A DNA stretch of 47,241 nucleotides, taken from positions 1-47,241 of IMG/VR virus record IMGVR_UViG_3300038557_000041; one strand, written 5' to 3'. The notes beneath the pieces were generated by a model. The model was not told where the DNA came from and did no database searches. It saw only the letters and a program-made list of their open reading frames with translations. This document shows, piece by piece, positions 3,482 to 44,995 of the stretch. The position numbers and the translations under genes are program-made. The DNA is from a virus. The first letter of the stretch is position 1. The number at the start of each line of letters is the position of its first letter.

Positions 3482-4255
3482 TCACCGCCTCCCGATGTGC
3501 CAACTCACCTTGCCGAGAATCAGCACGGCGGCGAGAGGCACCTCGAAGTTTTGATAGGCCGGGTTGTCGGAGATGATCGCGACCTTCACCGGCTGCGAGA
3601 AGGGAATGCGCTGCAGGCGCTTCACCTGGGGTGGGCTCGAGCCATCGCTGATCATGTAGACGCCATCGCTCATCATGGCGTTCTGCGACAGGTCCACAAC
3701 GGCGCGGTCGCCGGGTAGATAGGTCGGGATCATGCTGTCCCCGTCTATCGCCGCAACGATGGACTGAGAGGGACTCGTGCCGCTGTCTCGAAGGAAGTCG
3801 GCAGGGAACAGCCACTCGCCGGTGATGCGATGGCCCGAGTATGCCTCGCCGTTCACCTCGAGCGTCATGATTTCGCCCACAGCGCCTTGGCCTGCGCCCA
3901 TCTTGATGTCGAGTTCCGGCAATGCGCCGGCGACGCGCGGTCGATAGGTTTCCCGACTATAGGCCTCACCCTCGAAATCGGGCTCGGGGCGCCAGTTGCT
4001 GTCGTGTTCTGGCAAAGGCACGTAGGTCAGGTCAGGCTTGCCCGACGCCGGTGGGGTGTTGAGCATTAGTTGGTCAGCGGTGACCTGCAGGTGCGGCGCC
4101 ATCTCTTCGGCGCGGTCGCGCTTGAGCTTCCGGTGGTCGTTGGCCAGCCGGTTTATCGTCGCCCGGGAGAGGCCCATAGCGTCGGCCAGTTGGTCCTGGG
4201 TCAGGTCGGCGGCAGCTAGAAAGGGGGCGAGCCAGTTCATGTTGCGGTTATCCAA
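3482..4255 (-). CDS. CI-like repressor, XRE HTH plus S24 peptidase domain
   Basis: Master lysogeny repressor. With the ATG at 4255 the product has 257 residues: an N-terminal helix-turn-helix (DLTQDQLADAMGLSRATINRL, about residues 18-38), a linker, and a LexA/UmuD-type S24 domain. The Ser/Lys dyad is visible as Ser175 in GDSMIPT and Lys213 in PPQVKRLQ; an Ala-Gly pair in RVAGALPE (110-111) is a candidate self-cleavage site, so induction by RecA after DNA damage is likely. The reading frame stays open up to 4312, but that extension lies in the operator; ATG at 4240 is another possible start. No start has a strong ribosome site, which may mean weak or leaderless translation. It is divergent from the Cro-like gene. 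Confidence 0.9.
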   Translation of the reverse strand: MDNRNMNWLAPFLAAADLTQDQLADAMGLSRATINRLANDHRKLKRDRAEEMAPHLQVTADQLMLNTPPASGKPDLTYVPLPEHDSNWRPEPDFEGEAYSRETYRPRVAGALPELDIKMGAGQGAVGEIMTLEVNGEAYSGHRITGEWLFPADFLRDSGTSPSQSIVAAIDGDSMIPTYLPGDRAVVDLSQNAMMSDGVYMISDGSSPPQVKRLQRIPFSQPVKVAIISDNPAYQNFEVPLAAVLILGKVSWHIGRR

Positions 4256-4285
4256 CATGACGATGTCGCACGCTATGCCATGAAA

Positions 4286-4335
4286 TGTTACACGCCGCTT
4301 GACATGTAACATATTGTGTAGCAGGTCTTGCTACA
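4286..4335. promoter_or_regulatory. Divergent operator region between cI-like and cro-like genes
   Basis: Four boxes of the TGTARCA type: TGTTACA (4286-4292), TGTAACA (4305-4311), TGTAGCA (4317-4323) and TGCTACA (4329-4335). The last two form a perfect inverted repeat with a 5-base spacer ending at the Cro-like start codon; the first two repeat the 12-base spacing seen at 3447-3472. TTGACA at 4299-4304 is a possible -35 box for rightward transcription, although no good -10 follows at the usual distance. This should be the OR-like switch of the phage. Confidence 0.75.
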
Positions 4336-8457: not shown

Positions 8458-11081
8458 ACCTGCCGCTCACCTATCGCGAGTTCCTGGAGGCGAAGATCAT
8501 TACCGCGCCGGTTGGCGGGTTCGAGGTTGCGCTCGAGGACATCAACCCGCTGCTGAAACCGCACCAGAAGGCGATGGTGCAATGGGCCTGCCGCGGCGGC
8601 CGACGGGCGATCTTCGCTGCGTTCGGGCTTGGGAAGAGCTTCATCCAGCTCGAAATCCTCCGCCTGGTGCTGCTGCACACCGGCATGCCGGTGCTGCAGG
8701 TGGCGCCGCTCGGCGTGCGCCTCGAGCTGATGGGCGACGCGCGGACGCTGTCGATCGGTGACCACCCCGACATCACCGACGAGCAGCGCGCCGAGCTTGC
8801 CACGTGGCTTGCGGCTGGCCCCGGCCGAGGGATCGACCTGAAATTCATCCGCCGCACCGTCGAGGTGCATGGCGCCGGGCACTATCTGGCCAACTACGAG
8901 AGCATCCGAGACGGGAAGATCGACCCGCTGGTGTTCGGCGGCGTGTCGCTCGACGAGGCCTCGTGCCTGCGCGGGTTCGGCGGCAGCAAGACCTTCCGCG
9001 AGTTCATGCGGCTGTTCGACGGCATGGGCTACAAGTTCGTCGCCACGGCCACGCCAAGCCCGAACGAATACATCGAGCTGCTGGCCTACTCGGCGTTCCT
9101 CGAGGTGATGGATATCGGGCAGGCGAAGACCCGGTTCTTCAAGCGGAATAGCGAGAAGGCCGACAGCCTGACCATCCACCGGCACAAGGAACGCGAGTTC
9201 TGGCTGTGGGTCGCGAGCTGGGGGCTGTTCGTCGAGCGGCCATCGGATCTCGGGTTCTCCGATGAGGGCTACGAGCTGCCCGGGCTCGATATCCACTGGC
9301 ACGAGCTGCCGTCGAACCACCTGACCGCCGGTACCGAGAAATCGGGTCAGGGGCGGCTACTTAAGAATGCAGCAGCGTCGTTGAGCGACGCAGCGCGGGA
9401 GAAGCGTGAAAGCCTATCGGTGCGGGTGGCCAAGCTGATGGAGCTGCGGGCGCTCGACCCGGATGCGCACCGGGTGATCTGGCATGACCTCGAGGCCGAG
9501 CGTCACGCAATCGAGGCTGCGATCGGCGCCAGCGTCAAATCGGTATGGGGGTCGCAGGACCTCGACGAGCGCGAGAAGCGGCTGACCGACTTTGCCTATG
9601 GGCGGCTCGGCGAGCTTTCGACCAAGCCGGTGATCGCCGGCCAGGGCTGCAACTTCCAGCGCTACTGCCACTGGGAAGTGTTCCTCGGCATCGGCCACAA
9701 GTTCAACGACCTGATCCAGGCGATCCATCGCTGCTACCGATTCCTGCAGCGGCACCAAGTGCGGGTCGACCTGATCTACACGGAGGCCGAACGGCCGATC
9801 CGCGACAGCATCGAAGCCAAGTGGCGCCGCCACGACGAACAGCGGGCAATCATGACAGACATCATCCGGCAATACGGCCTCTCGGCCGTGGCCATGGCTT
9901 CGTCGCTGAAGCGTGGCATGGGGGTCGAGCGCGTCGAGGTGCGCGGCGATCTCTTTACGCTCGTCAATAACGACTGTGTCGACGAAGTGCGGCAGATGGC
10001 CGACGACTCGGTTGACCTGATCGTCACCTCGATCCCGTTCTCGACGCAGTACGAGTACAGCCCGAACTACGCGGACTTCGGCCACACCGACGACGACCGG
10101 CATTTCTGGTCGCAGATGGATTTCCTGATCCCCGAGCTGTTGCGCGTGCTGGCGCCGGGCCGCGTGGCGATGATCCACGTCAAGGACCGGATCGTGCCCG
10201 GGGGGCTGACTGGGCTGGGGTTCCAGACCGTATCGCCGTTCTCGGACGATTGTGTCGCGCGGTTCCGGCAGCACGGCTGGGCCTTCCTCAGCCGCGTCAC
10301 CGTGACCACCGACGTGGTGCGCGAGAACAACCAGACCTATCGGCTCGGCTGGTCTGAGCAGTGCAAGGACGGCTCGCGCATGGGCAACGGGCTGCCCGAA
10401 TATTGCCTCGTGTTCCGCAAGCCGCCTTCGGACAACTCGAACGGCTATGCCGACAAGCCGGTGAAGAAGGCCAAGCGCGCGTTCGAGGCTGGTAGCTGGT
10501 CCAATGACGGCTACTCGCGCGGCCGGTGGCAGCTCGATGCCCATGGCTTCCGCAAGTCGAGCGGCGACCGACTGCTGACGCCGGAGGAGCTGCGCGGGCT
10601 CGACGCCAATGTCATCTACAAGGTCTGGAAGCAATACGACCTGGGCGCGGTCTACGACATCGAGCGACACGTCTACCTCGCCGAAGGGCTGGAGGAGGCG
10701 AGCGGCCTGCCGAGCGACTTCATGCTGCTGCCGCCGCACTCGAACCATCCCGAGGTGTGGAGCGACGTGGCGCGCATGCTGTCGATGAACACCCTGCAGG
10801 CGCAGCAGGGGCGCGAGATGCACCTCTGCCCGCTCCAGTTCGACATCATCGACCGGGCGATCCGCCAGTACAGCGAGCCCGGGGAGACGGTGTTCGACCC
10901 GTTCGGCGGGGTGATGAGCGTGCCGTACCGCGCGCTGAAGCTCGGCAGGAAGGGCCGGGCCGTCGAACTCAACCCCAGCTACTTCCGCGACGGCTGCGCC
11001 CACGTGGCACGAATGGCCGAGGAGCTGGCCACGCCGGATTTGTTCGGGGTGCTCGGTATCGAGGAGACGGCTGATGCCTAA
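8454..11081 (+). CDS. Helicase-DNA methyltransferase fusion
   Basis: An 875-residue protein with two enzymes. The N-terminal half is an SF2/SNF2-like helicase: Walker A in FAAFGLGKS (54-62), Walker B DEAS (167-170), motif III-like VATATPSP (196-203) and motif VI-like QAIHRCYRF (422-430). The C-terminal part is a beta-class N4-cytosine/N6-adenine methyltransferase: motif IV as TSIPF (525-529) instead of the usual (S/D)PP(Y/F), and the AdoMet-binding motif VFDPFGGVMS (813-822), in the IV-then-I order of that class. The start is GTG, overlapping the previous stop. It probably methylates phage DNA as it is replicated, giving protection against host restriction or changing gene expression; the recognition site cannot be read from the sequence. 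Confidence 0.88.
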   Translation: MNLPLTYREFLEAKIITAPVGGFEVALEDINPLLKPHQKAMVQWACRGGRRAIFAAFGLGKSFIQLEILRLVLLHTGMPVLQVAPLGVRLELMGDARTLSIGDHPDITDEQRAELATWLAAGPGRGIDLKFIRRTVEVHGAGHYLANYESIRDGKIDPLVFGGVSLDEASCLRGFGGSKTFREFMRLFDGMGYKFVATATPSPNEYIELLAYSAFLEVMDIGQAKTRFFKRNSEKADSLTIHRHKEREFWLWVASWGLFVERPSDLGFSDEGYELPGLDIHWHELPSNHLTAGTEKSGQGRLLKNAAASLSDAAREKRESLSVRVAKLMELRALDPDAHRVIWHDLEAERHAIEAAIGASVKSVWGSQDLDEREKRLTDFAYGRLGELSTKPVIAGQGCNFQRYCHWEVFLGIGHKFNDLIQAIHRCYRFLQRHQVRVDLIYTEAERPIRDSIEAKWRRHDEQRAIMTDIIRQYGLSAVAMASSLKRGMGVERVEVRGDLFTLVNNDCVDEVRQMADDSVDLIVTSIPFSTQYEYSPNYADFGHTDDDRHFWSQMDFLIPELLRVLAPGRVAMIHVKDRIVPGGLTGLGFQTVSPFSDDCVARFRQHGWAFLSRVTVTTDVVRENNQTYRLGWSEQCKDGSRMGNGLPEYCLVFRKPPSDNSNGYADKPVKKAKRAFEAGSWSNDGYSRGRWQLDAHGFRKSSGDRLLTPEELRGLDANVIYKVWKQYDLGAVYDIERHVYLAEGLEEASGLPSDFMLLPPHSNHPEVWSDVARMLSMNTLQAQQGREMHLCPLQFDIIDRAIRQYSEPGETVFDPFGGVMSVPYRALKLGRKGRAVELNPSYFRDGCAHVARMAEELATPDLFGVLGIEETADA

Positions 11082-22421: not shown

Positions 22422-24587
22422 ATGCATTGGCTGATCGTGAACGGCGAGCTCGTGCTCTACGGGTTCGTGGGCGAAGGCTATTGGGACACCGACTACTTCA
22501 CGCCGCGTGACGTCCTCGACGCGCTGCTGCTGCTGAAGGGCGACATCACCGTTCGCATCAACTCCGGCGGCGGCGTCGCGATGGATGGCCTCGCCATCTA
22601 CAACGCGCTGAAGCTGCACGATGGCAAGGTGACTGTGGTCGTCGACGCTGCAGCCGTGTCGGCGGCTAGCCTGATCGCGATGGCCGGCGACACGGTTCAG
22701 ATGACCGCCGGGTCGCTGATGATGATCCACGATCCGAGCACGGTTGGCGTCGGCAATTCTGACGAACTGCAGGCCGCTGCCGATGTCCTCGACAAGATGG
22801 CGGACCAGTTCGCTTCGATCTACGCGGCGAAGGCCGGGATCACTGCTGAAGCCGCGCGCGAGATCATGAAAGCCGAGACCTGGTACACGGCCGACGAAGC
22901 CGTTGCCGCCGGTTTCGCCGACGAGGTCGCCTCGGTCGACGCCAAGGCCGTCGCGCTGTTCGACTATCGCCTCTACCCCAAATCCCCGACTTCGCTGACG
23001 GCGCTGGCTACGGCGTCGGCTTCTATGTTCCAGCCAAAAGCGGCAACCGCCGCGCAACCCCAGGAGAAAAGCATGACGCTCGAACAGCTGATTGCAATGC
23101 TTGCCGCGCGGTTCGGAAGCCCCGCGGCCGACGTGACCACGATGTGCAACCAGGCCATCGCCGCCGGTATCGAGCTTGCCGCCCTCACCGTGATGTTCAA
23201 GGACACGGCCACGCTGCAGGCCGCCAAGGACGCCGTGAAGGCCAAGGCCGCCGAGATGCTCGGCGCGGTGACGGCACCGGCGCCGGTCGCTGCGCCTGCG
23301 CCCGCCGTCACCACCATGTCCGCTGCCGACCTTCGCGATGTCTCGACCCGTGCCCTCGCTGGCGGGCTGGACCTTGCGACCGTCAACACCATCATGGCGC
23401 TGCCGAACAAGGAAGCCGCGTTCGCCGCCATCATCGACAAGGTCGCCGAGATGAAGGGTACCAACGCGCCGACCGCAACTGCCCAGGTGACCGAGGACGC
23501 GCGCGACAAGTTCCGCGAGGGCGCGTCGAAGGCTCTGCTGTTCAAGGAGCCGAAGACCCGCGCGCTCGGTGAGCGCAACGAGTTCTCGGGTCTCAGCCTC
23601 GTCGAGCTGGCGCGCGAAAGCCTGATGGTGGCCGGCCACAAGGACGCACGCCGGATGGACCGCATGGTCATGATCGGCACCGCGTTCACCGGCGGCGTCT
23701 TCATGTCGGGCGGGATGCACTCCACCTCCGACTTCGCCTTCATCCTGCAGAACGTCGCTGCGAAGTCGGCGCTCAAGGGTTACCAGGAGGCCGAAGAGAC
23801 CTTCGACAAGTGGACGTCGGTCGGCTCCGCCTCCGACTTCAAGCCGATCAGCCGCGTCGACCTCGGCTTGTTCCCCAACCTCGACAAGGTCGAGGAAGGT
23901 GCCGAGTACAAGTATGGCAAGATCGGGGATCGCGGCGCCACCGTGGTGATCGCCACCTACGGCAAGATGATCGCCATCACCCGCCAGGCGATCATCAACG
24001 ATGACCTGTCGATCCTCGGCAGCCTGCCGATCAAGATGGGCCGCGCGGCAAAGCGCACCGTGGGCAACCTCGTCTATGGCGTACTGACCGCCAACCCGAA
24101 CATGCCCGATGGTAAGGCTCTGTTCCACGCCGACCACGGGAACCTCGGCACCGCTGCCGTCCCGTCCGAGACCAGCTGGCAGGCCGCGGTCAACGCCATG
24201 GGCCAGCAGAAGGACGCCGACGCCATCGCGACGGCGCTCAACATCCGGCCGAGGTACTTCCTCTCGGGCGCGTACGAGTTCACGGCCAAGCAGCTGCTGA
24301 CCTCGACCGGCTCGCTGGAAAACAGCAAGAGCGCCGCAGTCGCCAACACCGTGCAGGGTCTGGTCGAGCCGATCACCGATCGCCGCATCACCGGCAACCA
24401 GTGGTTCATGGCGGCCGACCCGAACCAGTTCGATACCATCGAGGTGACCTACCTCGACGGCGTGCAGGAACCGGTGGTCGAGAGCAAGGACGGCTGGAAC
24501 ATCGACGGCACCGAACTGAAGGTCCGGCTCGATGCCGGCGTGAACCCGCTCGACTATCGCGGCCTGTTCAAGAACCCCGGCGCCTGA
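22422..24587 (+). CDS. Head protease-major capsid fusion protein
   Basis: A 721-residue protein joining head maturation protease and major capsid protein. Residues 1-180 are a ClpP-like S14/S49 fold: INSGGGVAMDG (46-56), the serine loop AAAVSAASLIAMAGD (Ser80 aligned with ClpP Ser98) and MMIHDP (His103). Residues about 218-350 are an Ala/Pro-rich scaffold-like helical region, and about 370-721 are a gpT-like HK97-fold capsid (TGGVFMSGG, GAEYKYGKIGDRG, ITRQAIINDDL). An internal ATG at codon 218 with AGGAG six bases upstream could give a separate 504-residue scaffold-capsid protein. GGAG before the first ATG is nine bases away. Fusions of this kind are known; self-cleavage would release the capsid protein. 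Confidence 0.9.
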   Translation: MHWLIVNGELVLYGFVGEGYWDTDYFTPRDVLDALLLLKGDITVRINSGGGVAMDGLAIYNALKLHDGKVTVVVDAAAVSAASLIAMAGDTVQMTAGSLMMIHDPSTVGVGNSDELQAAADVLDKMADQFASIYAAKAGITAEAAREIMKAETWYTADEAVAAGFADEVASVDAKAVALFDYRLYPKSPTSLTALATASASMFQPKAATAAQPQEKSMTLEQLIAMLAARFGSPAADVTTMCNQAIAAGIELAALTVMFKDTATLQAAKDAVKAKAAEMLGAVTAPAPVAAPAPAVTTMSAADLRDVSTRALAGGLDLATVNTIMALPNKEAAFAAIIDKVAEMKGTNAPTATAQVTEDARDKFREGASKALLFKEPKTRALGERNEFSGLSLVELARESLMVAGHKDARRMDRMVMIGTAFTGGVFMSGGMHSTSDFAFILQNVAAKSALKGYQEAEETFDKWTSVGSASDFKPISRVDLGLFPNLDKVEEGAEYKYGKIGDRGATVVIATYGKMIAITRQAIINDDLSILGSLPIKMGRAAKRTVGNLVYGVLTANPNMPDGKALFHADHGNLGTAAVPSETSWQAAVNAMGQQKDADAIATALNIRPRYFLSGAYEFTAKQLLTSTGSLENSKSAAVANTVQGLVEPITDRRITGNQWFMAADPNQFDTIEVTYLDGVQEPVVESKDGWNIDGTELKVRLDAGVNPLDYRGLFKNPGA
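23062..23075 (+). promoter_or_regulatory. Internal ribosome site and start codon in capsid fusion
   Basis: AGGAG at 23062-23066, a six-base spacer and ATG at 23073-23075, in frame with the fusion gene (codon 218). The spacing and match are better than at the gene's own start. It would give protease-free scaffold-capsid chains in excess, as lambda Nu3 does within C. Confidence 0.6.
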
Positions 24588-26414: not shown

Positions 26415-27386
26415 ATGGCCAAGCCGCGCGCGCAGGGCGCCGACGTCGTTACGCTCATTGCCAAGGAATCTGTCTACGGCACGCCGCCTGCCGGCAACTG
26501 GCGCCGCATGCCGTTGCGCTCGGACGATGTTAGCGCCGCGCAGGGGCTCGAGGATGATCCGACCTGGAACCTGCCGACCGCCGACGACGGCGATCCGTCG
26601 TCAGCGGCCATGACCGTAGCCGGCGACATGGTGTTCCCGATGGACGTGCGCGGCCTCGGCGTGTTGATGACCATGGCGCTCGGTGCGTCGACGGTCGTCG
26701 AGACGACGCCGGATGTGCTCTGGACCCATACCTGGAAGTCGGGGGGCGACCTCTTCACCTATTCGAAGCAGGTCGGCCATCCGAAGCTGACGACGCCGAA
26801 GTATCGTACCCAAGCGGGGCTGAAGTCGAACGGATTCAGCTTCCCGATGGCGCGGAACGGCCGGGCGCTGCTCACCATGCCGTTCATCGCCCAGGGCGAA
26901 ATCAAGGACGTCGCCAGCCGAGACCCCACCCCCGATGCCTACGCGTACCTGCCGTTCGACAACGCGACGGGCGGAGTGAAGATCGACGGGGTGGTGCTCG
27001 CCAGCCTTACCGGCATGCAACTGAACTTCTCGAACTCACTCGAAGCCGTCGAGACGATCCGCGAAGACATGAAGATCGATGGTGCCGACGAGACGCGCCG
27101 CACCTGCTCCGGAACCGCAAATTTGCGGTTCGGCAGCGACGAGACGATCGACGACCTGGTTGACGACAAAACGCCGTGCGAGCTGACATTCTCGTTCAAG
27201 CTGCAGGCTCAGCCGACCTGGACGTTCATCGTCACCCTGCACCGTGTGTTCTTCGAAAAGACCAAGCAGTCGATCGGCGGTCCGGGCGGCATCGAACAGC
27301 CAACGGCGTTCCGCGCTGCCTACGACGAGACAGCCGGCTGCATGATGACGGTGACGCTCGCCAACGACGTCGAAACCTACAACTAG
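26415..27386 (+). CDS. Major tail tube protein (gpV-like)
   Basis: A 323-residue protein with the phage_tube_2-type pattern: the N-terminal AKESVYGTPPAGNWRRMPLR, central TYSKQVGHPKLTTPKYRTQA and KSNGFSFPMARNG, and a beta-rich C-terminal domain ending CMMTVTLANDVETYN. It polymerises into the non-contractile tail tube. It sits just before the tail chaperone. A 20-bp palindrome (27112-27131) lies in the gene and is translated in part as Ala-Asn-Leu-Arg, so the CGCAAATTTGCG motif is tolerated in a structural protein. Confidence 0.87.
   Translation: MAKPRAQGADVVTLIAKESVYGTPPAGNWRRMPLRSDDVSAAQGLEDDPTWNLPTADDGDPSSAAMTVAGDMVFPMDVRGLGVLMTMALGASTVVETTPDVLWTHTWKSGGDLFTYSKQVGHPKLTTPKYRTQAGLKSNGFSFPMARNGRALLTMPFIAQGEIKDVASRDPTPDAYAYLPFDNATGGVKIDGVVLASLTGMQLNFSNSLEAVETIREDMKIDGADETRRTCSGTANLRFGSDETIDDLVDDKTPCELTFSFKLQAQPTWTFIVTLHRVFFEKTKQSIGGPGGIEQPTAFRAAYDETAGCMMTVTLANDVETYN
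27115..27128. repeat. Palindrome CCGCAAATTTGCGG, copy 3
   Basis: The 14-bp motif is here extended to a perfect 20-bp palindrome, GAACCGCAAATTTGCGGTTC (27112-27131), inside the tail tube gene and read as Ala-Asn-Leu-Arg. Confidence 0.9.
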
Positions 27387-27398
27387 GACTGGCTCGGC

Positions 27399-27818
27399 AT
27401 GTTGAAGCTCTACAAGCCAAGCGCTCCCAGGTGGGTGGAGTTGCCGGCCGGCGGCGCGCTGTTGTGCGTGCCGGTCTCCACGCCGTTGGCCTATGCCGCT
27501 CGGGCGCGAGCCGATGCACTGCTGGTTGAACTGCAGTCGGCTGGCGAGGTGGTGACGAAGGCTGGCGGACACATCGTCGATGTACCGGACCTCAGCACAC
27601 CAGAAGGGCTCGCCGGCACCCGGCAGTCGTTGTTCGTAGTGTCGCTCGCCGAGCTGGCGGCCACCGACTGGCGTGGCGTTGGTGACGACGATGGTGCGCC
27701 GCTGAAGTTCGATGCTGGCCACATGGCAGGGCTGATGGCTCATCCCGGCGTCGCCGACGCGTTTCAGGCGGACTACCTCAGCCCGGTCTACTCGGTGATA
27801 TCCGAGGGAAACGCCTAA
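27399..27818 (+). CDS. Tail assembly chaperone (gpG-like)
   Basis: A 139-residue protein (MLKLYKPSAPRWVELPAGGALL), mostly helical after a beta start, located between the tail tube and tape measure genes exactly where lambda gpG lies. It coats the tape measure protein and recruits tube subunits. Its last codons are GAG GGA AAC GCC TAA, which include the slippery heptamer G GGA AAC followed by a stem-loop, so a fraction of ribosomes should shift to -1 and make a G-T type fusion. The short form ends SEGNA. Confidence 0.82.
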   Translation: MLKLYKPSAPRWVELPAGGALLCVPVSTPLAYAARARADALLVELQSAGEVVTKAGGHIVDVPDLSTPEGLAGTRQSLFVVSLAELAATDWRGVGDDDGAPLKFDAGHMAGLMAHPGVADAFQADYLSPVYSVISEGNA

Positions 27819-27851
27819 CGGCCCTTGCCGATTGGCACTTTGGCAAGGGCC
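27806..27851 (+). promoter_or_regulatory. Programmed -1 frameshift element
   Basis: Slippery heptamer GGGAAAC at 27806-27812 in the X XXY YYZ phase of the chaperone frame, a 7-base spacer (27813-27819, containing the chaperone stop), and a perfect 10-bp stem GGCCCTTGCC (27820-27829) with 27842-27851 and a 12-base loop. Lambda uses GGGAAAG at the same place in G. Confidence 0.8.
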
Positions 27852-27960
27852 GGGGCCGAACCTACTGCGACGGGTGCGAGGCGGCTGGAGCCGCCTGCGC
27901 CACCACCACACCCAAGGACTGCGTCTACCACCAACAGGCCCGCGACCGGACGCCGGTCGC
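27813..27960 (+). other. -1 frame extension of tail chaperone (gpT-like)
   Basis: After a -1 shift at 27806 the frame stays open and reads GKRLTALADWHFGKGRG, then a segment with cysteines in TYCDGCEAAGAAC and KDCVYHQQA, up to about RDRTPVAW. This looks like real protein, unlike the other two frames here. No stop occurs in this frame before the tape measure, which shares it; the downstream similarity seems to jump to another frame at 27961. The C-terminal limit of the fusion is therefore uncertain. Confidence 0.5.
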
Positions 27961-28170
27961 ATGGCCTGGTCGCTGTTCCTTGACGACGCATGGCGAGTGC
28001 GGGTGCTCGGCATGGGCTTCGTCGCCGGCGTCGATACGAGCCGCGCCGAGGCGCGGCTCGAAGCGGCCGGCGTCGATCGGGAGGTCGCAGAGGATCTCCT
28101 GTCGGCCTGCGAGCTGGGATTCTTCACCGCGGCGAATGAGAAGGACGATGTCGATGGCGCCAAAGAGTAG
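27961..28170 (+). CDS. DUF1799-like small tail protein (possibly part of GT)
   Basis: A 69-residue reading starting MAWSLFLDDAWRVRVLGMGFV, with helices SRAEARLEAAGVDREVAEDL and LSACELGFFTAANE, reminiscent of DUF1799-type proteins found between the tail chaperone and tape measure in many phages. No Shine-Dalgarno precedes the ATG. The upstream -1 frame ends with TPVAW just where this frame reads MAWSLFLDD, so the two may be one protein joined by a second shift, or by an indel in the sequence. It overlaps the tape measure start by 17 bases. Confidence 0.5.
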   Translation: MAWSLFLDDAWRVRVLGMGFVAGVDTSRAEARLEAAGVDREVAEDLLSACELGFFTAANEKDDVDGAKE

Positions 28171-30229
28171 GGAAGTCGGCATCCGTCTCAGCGTCAAGGA
28201 TGCCGAGGTGGCCAAGCGCGCCCTTGCTGCCTTCGGTACGGATGGGCAGGCCGCCCTGAAGCGGATCGAGAATGCGGGCAAGCCGGCCTCAGTGTCACTG
28301 CACGCGCTGAACGCGGCGACGGGTGGCGCCCGGGCCGCGATCAGCGGGTTCGTCTCCGGTGCTGTTGCGGGCATCGTGCCGATCCTGAGTTTGTCGGCGG
28401 CGATCAGCAGTACTCGGGCGGCGCTCGAGAAGTTCGGAGCGATTGCTGACCAGTCGAAACGGTCGGGGCTAGACACCGAGTTCTTCCAGGGTATCGCGCA
28501 GCAGGCGAAGCTTGCGGGCATCGAGGTCGGAACGACGGCCGCCGCACTTGCAACCTTCGCGCAGAACTCCGGCCTCGCCGCTGAAGGCCGAGGCCGGATG
28601 GTCACCACGCTCAAGGCGCTCAATCCTGAGCTGCTGCGCAACATCCAGCTGGCGACCACGCAGGAGGAGCGGGTTCGGCTCGCAGCCGATGCGATCAACG
28701 CCGCCACCTCGGCTGCCGAGAAGGCGGCGCTCTCGGGCGCCCTGTTCCAGAACAAGGACCTCGCTGCCGCATTCGAGGGTGGCGCGGCTGCCCTCGATGA
28801 CTTCGTGCGCAAGGGACGTGAACTGGGGCTGATCGTCGATCGGGACGTCATCGCTCGCGCCGACGAGCTGGGAGACTCGCTCGATACGGCGTCAGAGATC
28901 ATCGACAACAACCTGAAGCAGGCATTGCTGAACCTCGCGCCGGGGCTCGCCAACTTCGCCGGCTGGGTTGCGATCATTTCCGCCAACATCCGCGACATGG
29001 TGGATGCGACCAAGGCCCTCGAAGATCGCTCGAGTGCAACGCTCAACAACCAGTTGCGCGATCTCGGCATCGCCGACGTCGGGCTGGAGAACCGCGCGAT
29101 CGACGTGCAGGGTCGGCTCAACAATCCGAGCCTGCTCGATCAGTTGAACCGCGGCGCGCTCGAAGCCGAGCTTGCAAAGATCAAGGCGGAGCGCGAGGCC
29201 AACCAGGCGCAGCAGAAGGCGATCCTCGACCAGCTCGCGACGCGGACACCCGTCGAACCCGTGGTGCCGCTCGACACGCCCGACCTGCCGACGTCCGACG
29301 AGGCGAAGGCGGCGATCAAGGAAGCCGAGGCGCTAACCAAGCGACTGCGGACCGCGACCGAGGAATATGCCGCGACGATCGCCGACCTCGGCCAGAAGCA
29401 AGCGGCGGGGCTGATCTCGCAGGAAACCTACAACCGGGCCGCCGGCGAGGCGGCGCTGAAGTTTGCTGCGGCAGCCGATGGCAGCGACGCCTACGCCGAG
29501 GCGCTCGCGCGCCTCGACCAGGCGAAGGCGGCCGGCATCATCACCGAAAAGCAGTACACCGATGCCGTGGAGAGCCTGACCAAGCGGCGGCTGATCGCGC
29601 AGAACGATTGGGTTGCCGGTGTGCAACTGGGGCTGATGCAGATCGCCGATGGCGCCGACGAGGTGACCAGTTCAGTAGCGCAGGCAGTGAGCGGCTGGGC
29701 CGAGAGCCTTGGCACTCAGGTCGGCGACGTGTTCCGCACCGGCAAGTTCGCCTGGCAGGATTTGGTGAAGACCATGCTGGCTGACATAGCGAAGCTCGCG
29801 ACGCAGCAGTTCATCACCAAGCCCCTGGCAGGGCTTCTCGGCAGCGTGTTTGGCGGGCTGCTCGGTGGTGGCGGCGGGCTCACACCGCAGCCAGTCACCA
29901 ATATCGGTTTCGGCAGCTACGGCAGTTTCGACACCGGCGGCTGGACAGGCGACGGCAACCCTGCCGATCCGGCAGGCATGGTTCACCGCAAAGAGTTCGT
30001 GGTGAAGGCTGGCCCCGCCGCCCGGTACCGCAGCGCACTAGAGGCCATCAACGAGGGGCGGTCCCTTGCGGGCGGCGGCGCTATCACGTTGGCGCCAACT
30101 TACAATGTCGACGGCTCCAGCCTGTCGCCGGGGCAACTGCTCGCCGTGCTCGACCAGCACAGCTCGATGCTGCTCGACCGTGTGTCGGGGATCGTAAAAC
30201 GTGACGTGAAGAACGGGGTGTTCAATTGA
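28154..30229 (+). CDS. Tape measure protein
   Basis: A 691-residue tape measure beginning MAPKSREVGIRLSVKDAEVAK; AAGGA eight bases upstream favours ATG 28154 over 28148. It is helical throughout, with a hydrophobic section near residues 55-85 (ISGFVSGAVAGIVPILSLSAAIS, split: ISGFVSGAVAGI and VPILSLSAAIS), long Ala-rich coiled coil, repeated ADG/QAKAAGIITEKQ-type segments, and a Gly-rich end (LLGGGGGLTPQ, FDTGGWTGDG, GMVHRKEFVVKAGPAARY) typical of tape measures. It sets tail length and helps DNA cross the membrane. The frame is open upstream to the frameshift site, so a fused reading is formally possible. Confidence 0.9.
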   Translation: MAPKSREVGIRLSVKDAEVAKRALAAFGTDGQAALKRIENAGKPASVSLHALNAATGGARAAISGFVSGAVAGIVPILSLSAAISSTRAALEKFGAIADQSKRSGLDTEFFQGIAQQAKLAGIEVGTTAAALATFAQNSGLAAEGRGRMVTTLKALNPELLRNIQLATTQEERVRLAADAINAATSAAEKAALSGALFQNKDLAAAFEGGAAALDDFVRKGRELGLIVDRDVIARADELGDSLDTASEIIDNNLKQALLNLAPGLANFAGWVAIISANIRDMVDATKALEDRSSATLNNQLRDLGIADVGLENRAIDVQGRLNNPSLLDQLNRGALEAELAKIKAEREANQAQQKAILDQLATRTPVEPVVPLDTPDLPTSDEAKAAIKEAEALTKRLRTATEEYAATIADLGQKQAAGLISQETYNRAAGEAALKFAAAADGSDAYAEALARLDQAKAAGIITEKQYTDAVESLTKRRLIAQNDWVAGVQLGLMQIADGADEVTSSVAQAVSGWAESLGTQVGDVFRTGKFAWQDLVKTMLADIAKLATQQFITKPLAGLLGSVFGGLLGGGGGLTPQPVTNIGFGSYGSFDTGGWTGDGNPADPAGMVHRKEFVVKAGPAARYRSALEAINEGRSLAGGGAITLAPTYNVDGSSLSPGQLLAVLDQHSSMLLDRVSGIVKRDVKNGVFN

Positions 30230-43899: not shown

Positions 43900-44118
43900 C
43901 TAGGGCTGCCTTCTGACCAGCCACACCCGTCCCTCGATCGAGTGCGGCTCATCCTCCTCCTCGAACCCGAACCAGCCGCGCCAGTAGTTGAATTGCACGC
44001 GTTGCAGGGCAGGATCGTCGGTCGGGAACGTCCACCTGGCGAAATCAGGCTCCAGGAACTCAACGGTGGGCATAGCAGGCTCTGGCAAGCCGGCGCCTGG
44101 CGTTTTAGCGGCCGACAT
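43900..44118 (-). CDS. Hypothetical small protein next to ligase
   Basis: A 72-residue protein with an aromatic and acidic middle (FARWTFPTDDPALQRVQFNY, WRGWFGFEEEDEPHSIEG). Its ATG lies 14 bases inside the 3' end of the ligase gene on the same strand, so the two are probably coupled. No family is recognised; a role linked to the ligase is possible but not shown. Confidence 0.55.
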   Translation of the reverse strand: MSAAKTPGAGLPEPAMPTVEFLEPDFARWTFPTDDPALQRVQFNYWRGWFGFEEEDEPHSIEGRVWLVRRQP

Positions 44119-44995
44119 GTCGAAGCCTCTTGAGCGTGCCGTGGCGAAGCATCCCCTCGCCGCGCAGATGCCTCACCGTTGCCGCCAGCCCCGGCCGCAA
44201 CCATGTCCCGCGCCGTTTCAGCGGTAAAACAGGGACCTCGACCGTGTTCGCCTCGACGTAGGCCCAGAAATCCTCGCGGTCCGCCGCCTTCAGCGTAATG
44301 AAGGCATCCCCCACATAGTGCAGTCCATGCTCGTCTCGCCGTGCGAGGATCGCCACCGGTGCCCCCGTCGGCGACAGGTCGGCGCCGATCACCTCGAACT
44401 CGCCCACGGTGAACGTCTTCGTCTTCAGCCAGGTATCGGCGTCGCCGCTCTTGTAGCGGCTGCCGCGCTTCTTCGAGACGATCCCCTCGAGGCCCATGGC
44501 ATCGATGGCGGTAAAGGCCTCGGGGCCGTCGGCGCCCAGCTCCTGGCTGAAGGCGAGAGATGGCGCCGGCGCGCTCTGCATGAGGCCACTCAGCATTGCG
44601 CGCCGGCTCTCCACCGGCCTGCTGCGGACATCCTCCCCGTTCAGATGCAGCAGGTCGAAGGCGACGAAGATCAGATCCTGGGGCCGCCAGCGGATGGCCG
44701 CTGGTAAGCCTGAGAAGTCGGCCGCGCCACGGGCGTCCGGCAGGTAGACCTCGCCGTCAAGGATCGCAGAGGTGCACCGAAGTTGCGCGGCGGCGGCGAC
44801 GATCTGCGGATATTTGCTGGTCCAGTTCGCTCCGCTGCTGCTGAAGGCCTTCGCGCTGCCCGCCTCAAGATGCAGCTGGGTGCGGTAGCCGTCGAACTTC
44901 ACCTCGTGCAGCCAGCCGTCACCGCTCGGCGCAGTGTCGACCAGGCGCGGCTTCATCGGTTGGATATAGCGGAGGGCAGGGCGTTCCAGGAGCAT
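44105..44995 (-). CDS. ATP-dependent DNA ligase (LigD ligase-domain type)
   Basis: A 296-residue enzyme that seals nicks in DNA using ATP. Motif I is EVKFDGYR with the adenylated Lys33, motif III ILDGEVYLPD, motif IV LEGIVSKKRGSRYKSG, and motif V-like WLKTKT; an OB-fold follows. The length and motifs fit the stand-alone LigC / LigD-like ligase domain found in Rhizobiales and not T4-type ligases. No Ku or polymerase domain is present beside it. It could be a host repair gene next to the prophage or a phage accessory gene; the small overlapping gene downstream shares its transcript. Confidence 0.88.
   Translation of the reverse strand: MLLERPALRYIQPMKPRLVDTAPSGDGWLHEVKFDGYRTQLHLEAGSAKAFSSSGANWTSKYPQIVAAAAQLRCTSAILDGEVYLPDARGAADFSGLPAAIRWRPQDLIFVAFDLLHLNGEDVRSRPVESRRAMLSGLMQSAPAPSLAFSQELGADGPEAFTAIDAMGLEGIVSKKRGSRYKSGDADTWLKTKTFTVGEFEVIGADLSPTGAPVAILARRDEHGLHYVGDAFITLKAADREDFWAYVEANTVEVPVLPLKRRGTWLRPGLAATVRHLRGEGMLRHGTLKRLRHVGR

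Follow-up and report, generated by a model that had tools for sequence, protein, structure and literature searches.

A programmed −1 ribosomal frameshift signal of the lambda G/GT type very probably lies at the end of the tail assembly chaperone gene, here G, of a siphovirus-like prophage, and we hold this assignment, made from the sequence, with high confidence. The prophage was found in the window, i.e. the whole stretch of 47,241 nucleotides that was analysed (positions 1 to 47,241 of IMG/VR record IMGVR_UViG_3300038557_000041). The frameshift reading was put forward in an initial annotation, and is supported by the phase of the heptamer, the stem, the gene order, and a −1 frame gene, T, that is conserved in about 30 relatives.

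Most ribosomes would stop at the UAA codon at 27816 and release the chaperone G. A stem-loop of 11-13 bp would stall a minority of ribosomes on G_GGA_AAC, and these would slip one base back, from GGA-AAC to GGG-AAA, and read on into T to give a G-T protein. The device is a known one and not a new mechanism, the prophage being a further member of the lambda G/GT class, in which an identical heptamer and an equivalent stem are also present in Rhodobacter phage RcKemmy. A member of this class is expected to make the GT fusion product at a low level, to need it for tail assembly, and to lack it in virions. In lambda, gpG and gpGT are required at a ratio of about 30:1, with G binding the tape measure and T the tube protein (PMC5009743). 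By analogy, G of the prophage would coat the tape-measure protein, and recruitment of the tail tube protein would fall to the scarce GT.

Gene order and prophage setting

Pfam and PHROG matches gave the gene order tube protein, G, T and tape measure, with the following features around the signal.

26415-27386, plus strand: tail tube (major tail) protein gene, upstream of G (Phage_tube_2, E 3.5e-35; PHROG 290)
27399-27818, plus strand: G, probable tail assembly chaperone, 0-frame product of 139 aa, TAA stop at 27816-27818
27806-27812, plus strand: slippery heptamer G_GGA_AAC, phase checked; relatives have GGGAAA[CA] or AAAAAA[CA] there
27813-27818, plus strand: spacer of 6 nt, which includes the 0-frame stop codon
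27819-27852, plus strand: candidate stimulatory stem-loop, 11-bp perfect stem (27819-27829 with 27842-27852)
28148-30229, plus strand: tail tape-measure protein gene (Tape_meas_lam_C, E 2.5e-12), in the −1 frame of G

Two overlapping ORFs thus lie between the tube protein and the tape measure, as is characteristic of the lambda G/GT type. G matched PHROG 313 (tail assembly chaperone) weakly (E 0.0056), and the match was better from the G of one relative (E 4.7e-6); the location of G, with the tube gene before it and the tape-measure gene after it, also speaks for a chaperone. A domain search gave no Pfam match to G, PDB profile searches with G and T found no relative, and a protein search of annotated phage genomes with G gave no match; annotated Rhodobacter phages were retrieved with T, not G, as the query.

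The window holds a large serine recombinase, an S24-domain repressor, a GpA-type terminase, a Clp protease-capsid fusion and a lysozyme, and looks like an integrated prophage with flanking bacterial (host) sequence. The recombinase is located at 974-2575 and the S24 repressor at 3482-4312; towards the end of the window (44105-44995) lies what is probably an ATP-dependent DNA ligase of the host. The Clp-type protease and the major capsid protein occupy a single ORF (22422-24587), and a fusion of this kind is likewise reported for Rhodobacter phages of the RcC cluster (PMC8601537).

The slippery heptamer and the stem-loop

Read by codon, the 3' end of G is TCC GAG GGA AAC GCC TAA. The first G of GGGAAAC is at codon position 3, and the heptamer is therefore in slip phase, so that the X XXY YYZ phase proposed for it was borne out. 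The stop codon comes one codon past the heptamer; the six bases originally given for this distance hold when counted from the first base of the AAC codon, and from the last base of the heptamer it is 3 nt. The spacer was described as 7 bases long, and this was not upheld, as it has 6 nt. The stem had been called a perfect 10-bp stem, and it is indeed without mismatch but 11 bp long, or 13 pairs if inner G-U and A-U pairs are counted, with a loop of 8-12 nt.

As a word GGGAAAC is not rare, with 3 occurrences in the window versus 4.4 expected, and a second in-phase GGGAAAC sits within the portal gene. In-phase X_XXY_YYZ heptamers numbered only 10 in the 5810 codon positions of 15 late genes. What sets the site apart is that phase, position and stem come together, and not GGGAAAC as a word.

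The 48 nt 3' of the heptamer fold at −32.2 kcal/mol, compared to −18.0 ± 2.8 kcal/mol for dinucleotide shuffles (z −5.2, none of 200 equal). The stimulator rules in the passages of PMC4066793 that concern hairpins call for a hairpin 4-10 nt past the motif, a G-C first pair, and a stability of at least 7.6 kcal/mol. The stem agrees with the rules given in those passages, since it starts 7 nt past the heptamer, has a C-G first pair, and reaches about −28 to −32 kcal/mol. In the passages of the same source that concern heptamers in E. coli, G_GGA_AAC is outside the most efficient ones, and by this E. coli rule a heptamer with Z = C is intrinsically less slippery, while the alphaproteobacterial tRNA-Lys set may differ. 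The move from AAC to AAA is non-cognate, and a strong stem is therefore plausible as compensation; probably the stem does compensate for the less slippery heptamer.

A perfect GC-rich inverted repeat directly past the stop codon of G could also be a transcription terminator or an mRNA-processing site and not a frameshift stimulator. However, the genes downstream are tail genes in collinear order, a fixed distance always separates the stem from the slippery heptamer, and an Rfam search gave nothing reaching the gathering score. The terminator reading was rejected, as the stem-loop has no U-run and did not appear in the list from the terminator scan, and we consider this whole alternative extremely improbable.

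The lambda site, like that of the prophage, is located between the major tail protein and the tape measure, shifts in the −1 direction, and has a G_GGA_AAN heptamer in the same phase. The presence of GGGAAAG at the same gene and place in lambda was confirmed (position 10109). In contrast to the prophage, the lambda heptamer ends in G and the downstream structure is weak (only −7.3 kcal/mol for 50 nt), so that the added strong stem and the different last base pointed out in the initial annotation were both recovered.

Relatives of the signal and coding constraint on the stem

A search with a T profile retrieved 19 viral and 19 bacterial loci, the latter mainly prophages of Devosia, Paracoccus, Rhodobacteraceae and Erythrobacter, and T was found in 9 of 136 genomes from the family of the Devosia prophage. 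At all of the usable loci examined, about 30 in number, an intact −1 frame T of roughly 100-125 aa starts at the heptamer, which is GGGAAAC, GGGAAAA, AAAAAAC or AAAAAAA. These relatives come from viral contigs, from prophages of alphaproteobacteria, and from an isolated Rhodobacter phage whose chaperone gene is annotated as joined (T-intact set L003, L005, L006, L012-L015, L017-L027, L029-L044, L057 and L064-L072). They are split in two branches, one with GGGAAA[CA] and one mostly with AAAAAA[CA], and T is always −1 to G. The distance from heptamer to stem is constant across the relatives, and the stem is kept in nearly all of them, with heptamer, phase and −1 T frame kept in about 30. According to the initial annotation, the proposal would fail if related phages did not conserve the heptamer and the stem; when this was looked at, the signal survived in some 30 relatives.

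Three relatives (L003, L005 and L006), with G proteins 45-49% identical to that of the prophage, have GGGAAAC or GGGAAAA, a stop codon one codon on, and the stem, and their −1 frame T is intact, with 120-122 aa. The isolated phage RcKemmy (gp15/gp16; RcC cluster, MW677517) has GGGAAAC in the same phase and gene order, a comparably long stem with an identical upper part (CCCTTGC/GGCAAGGG), and a homologous T with the same four-cysteine motif, about 37% identical to the T of L005. Its annotated joined tail assembly chaperone CDS ends exactly at the stop codon of T as read from GGGAAAC. RcKemmy differs from the prophage in that its 0-frame stop is about 30 codons further on, its T is intact, and the outer two stem pairs are swapped. 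PMC8601537 implies that the frameshift is present in most phages of the Rhodobacter collection. The AAAAAAC branch, in prophages of Paracoccus, Rhodobacteraceae, Erythrobacter and Devosiaceae (L019-L044 and L069-L072), shares the homologous T, the −1 shift and the stem distance, but has A_AAA_AAC for G_GGA_AAC, and its 0-frame stop is often further downstream.

Alphaproteobacterial phages thereby offer a well sampled natural series of one frameshift site, with four heptamers and stems of varied strength. The usual heptamer class of these phages is a mediocre one in E. coli, and it is paired with a strong 3' stem; this routine pairing makes the strengths of heptamer and stimulator comparable in a constant gene context.

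The loci L045, L046, L047 and L063 were exceptions, the records being cut or G or T being broken or fused. A second T copy in L063 (~1938, reverse strand; Rhizobiales genome YIM 77505) follows a run of 8 A with G and T in-frame, which reflects either an error in the homopolymer or a GT that is naturally in-frame. Its sister copy L036 has 7 A, and a shift is needed. In the Nioella ostreopsis prophage (L047, 2560-3400) indels break both G and T.

The arms of the stem overlap codons of conserved T residues (ALAEWHFGKGRG; ALADWHFGKGRG). Because the stem lies in the codons of a conserved protein stretch, its conservation is in part accounted for by these codons and by itself proves little. The stem could accordingly be only a by-product of the amino acid sequence of T and of high GC, with the heptamer alone driving frameshifting. 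Its arms do encode the conserved ALADWHFGKGRG, and null sequences for the same protein already reach about −19 kcal/mol. However, GC-matched synonymous recoding of the window peptide gave about −19.5 kcal/mol versus −32.5 kcal/mol for the natural sequence (p about 0.004), and against this null p was below 0.03 in eight of ten related sequences, so that most natural stems beat it; two members of the clade, L065 (p 0.12) and L067 (p 0.66), exhibited no excess. The Fisher combination of the ten sequences is 5e-10, a value that overstates the case since the sequences are related. The same trend was observed in most members of the AAAAAAC branch, with no excess over the null in L026 and L041, nor in L042 when GC was not matched.

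Pairing across relatives pointed in the same direction. Among 22 aligned sequences 89% of the stem cells are paired, compared to 45-58% in slid controls, and at five stem pairs both partners have changed (14 cells of this kind versus 4.9 in shuffles), including the C-G/G-C swap of the two outer pairs in RcKemmy. The amino acid sequence of T does not call for so strong a stem, which is conserved beyond the coding constraint, and we consider it unlikely that the stem is a mere by-product of coding.

The interrupted T gene of the prophage

In the prophage itself T is broken in the middle, and the features concerned are listed below.

27806-27955 (edge approximate), plus strand: N-terminal half of T in the −1 frame (GKRLTALADWHFGKGRGRTYCDGC...), with the four-cysteine motif, located by tblastn with the T proteins of relatives
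27940-28170, plus strand: C-terminal half of T (DAGRMAWSLFLDDAWRVR..., DUF1799/DUF7697-like) in the next frame, stop codon at 28168-28170, overlapping the start of the tape-measure gene
27942-27960, plus strand: inverted repeat, 8-bp perfect with a 3-nt loop (GCGACCGG acg CCGGTCGC), located where the base is missing

T starts normally in the −1 frame (GKRLTALADWHFGKGRGRTYCDGC...CVYHQQ). When the T proteins of relatives were aligned by tblastn they matched frame 2 up to 27940-27973 and then frame 1, where the C-terminal half is 45-54% identical to their T and matches DUF1799 (E 0.0055) and DUF7697 (E 0.028), both under the curated cut-off. Compared to the close relatives with an intact T, exactly one base is missing near 27940-27955, and from the conserved Y-H/N codons to the W codon there are 35 nt in the window versus 36 in L003, L005 and L006. 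The second half of T is in another frame because of this one base. This copy therefore has no intact T that ends at the start of the tape measure, the signal itself being unaffected, and with a base missing mid-gene the −1 product as deposited cannot be a normal GT. Thus, while the signal for a −1 product at the tail chaperone is well supported, the interruption of T in this genome had gone unnoticed in the initial annotation.

When the ORFs of three relatives were mapped onto the window, T was the only broken gene; other ORF matches in two frames were antisense or out-of-frame shadows. The only close DNA relative found to span the hinge of T was a second record, IMGVR_UViG_3300039239_000017, which is identical over 38.5 kb, includes the T lesion, and may not be independent. 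Both sequencing errors and real deletions plausibly occur at such a hairpin as the one at this site. We lean towards a sequence artefact as the source of the missing base, and regard a real mutation of the prophage as a serious possibility. Artefact or prophage decay, and not a part of the frameshift device, is the likely cause of the broken T.

Two other accounts take the interruption as real and functional, and we judge this very unlikely overall. According to the first, the missing base is real, and the −1 shift yields a fusion of G, a truncated T and the tape measure of about 943 aa. The stop map shows that frame 2, the −1 frame of G, is stop-free from 27683 to 30227, into the tape-measure gene, and the second record has the same lesion. 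However, when other genes of the window are read in the corresponding relative frame, 8.6% (about 9%) of their 66-codon stretches are open by chance, and the open −1 frame is for that reason not evidence for a fusion. Moreover, from the hinge to the tape-measure start the open frame is not T in any relative, and the C-terminal half of T is still conserved in its own frame. A chaperone-tape-measure fusion drawn from the long open −1 frame was rejected on the grounds that this openness is near the chance level, and we find it very improbable indeed.

The second account, to which we give hardly any credence, holds that the frame is restored by a further recoding step within T, and GT would then be reached through two −1 steps, the second of them motif-less. 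The sequence of the C-terminal half is intact and one further −1 step away, and a strong 8-bp hairpin is found at the junction. Against this, a second slippery site or a frame-restoring homopolymer was looked for in T and not found, the junction being without an in-frame X_XXY_YYZ or Z_ZZN motif and with homopolymers of at most 3, and the T-intact relatives all read through the junction unbroken. The broken T of L047 lends no support to a programmed second break because its G is broken too.

Gene callers would miss or mis-start the second half of T (27940-28170), and automatic annotation of the prophage would miss GT twice, at the programmed shift and then at the missing base.

In this family of T proteins the N-terminal half contains a conserved four-cysteine motif, YCxxC...C...C (27863-27931), ahead of the DUF1799-like part, and this motif is possibly a zinc site.
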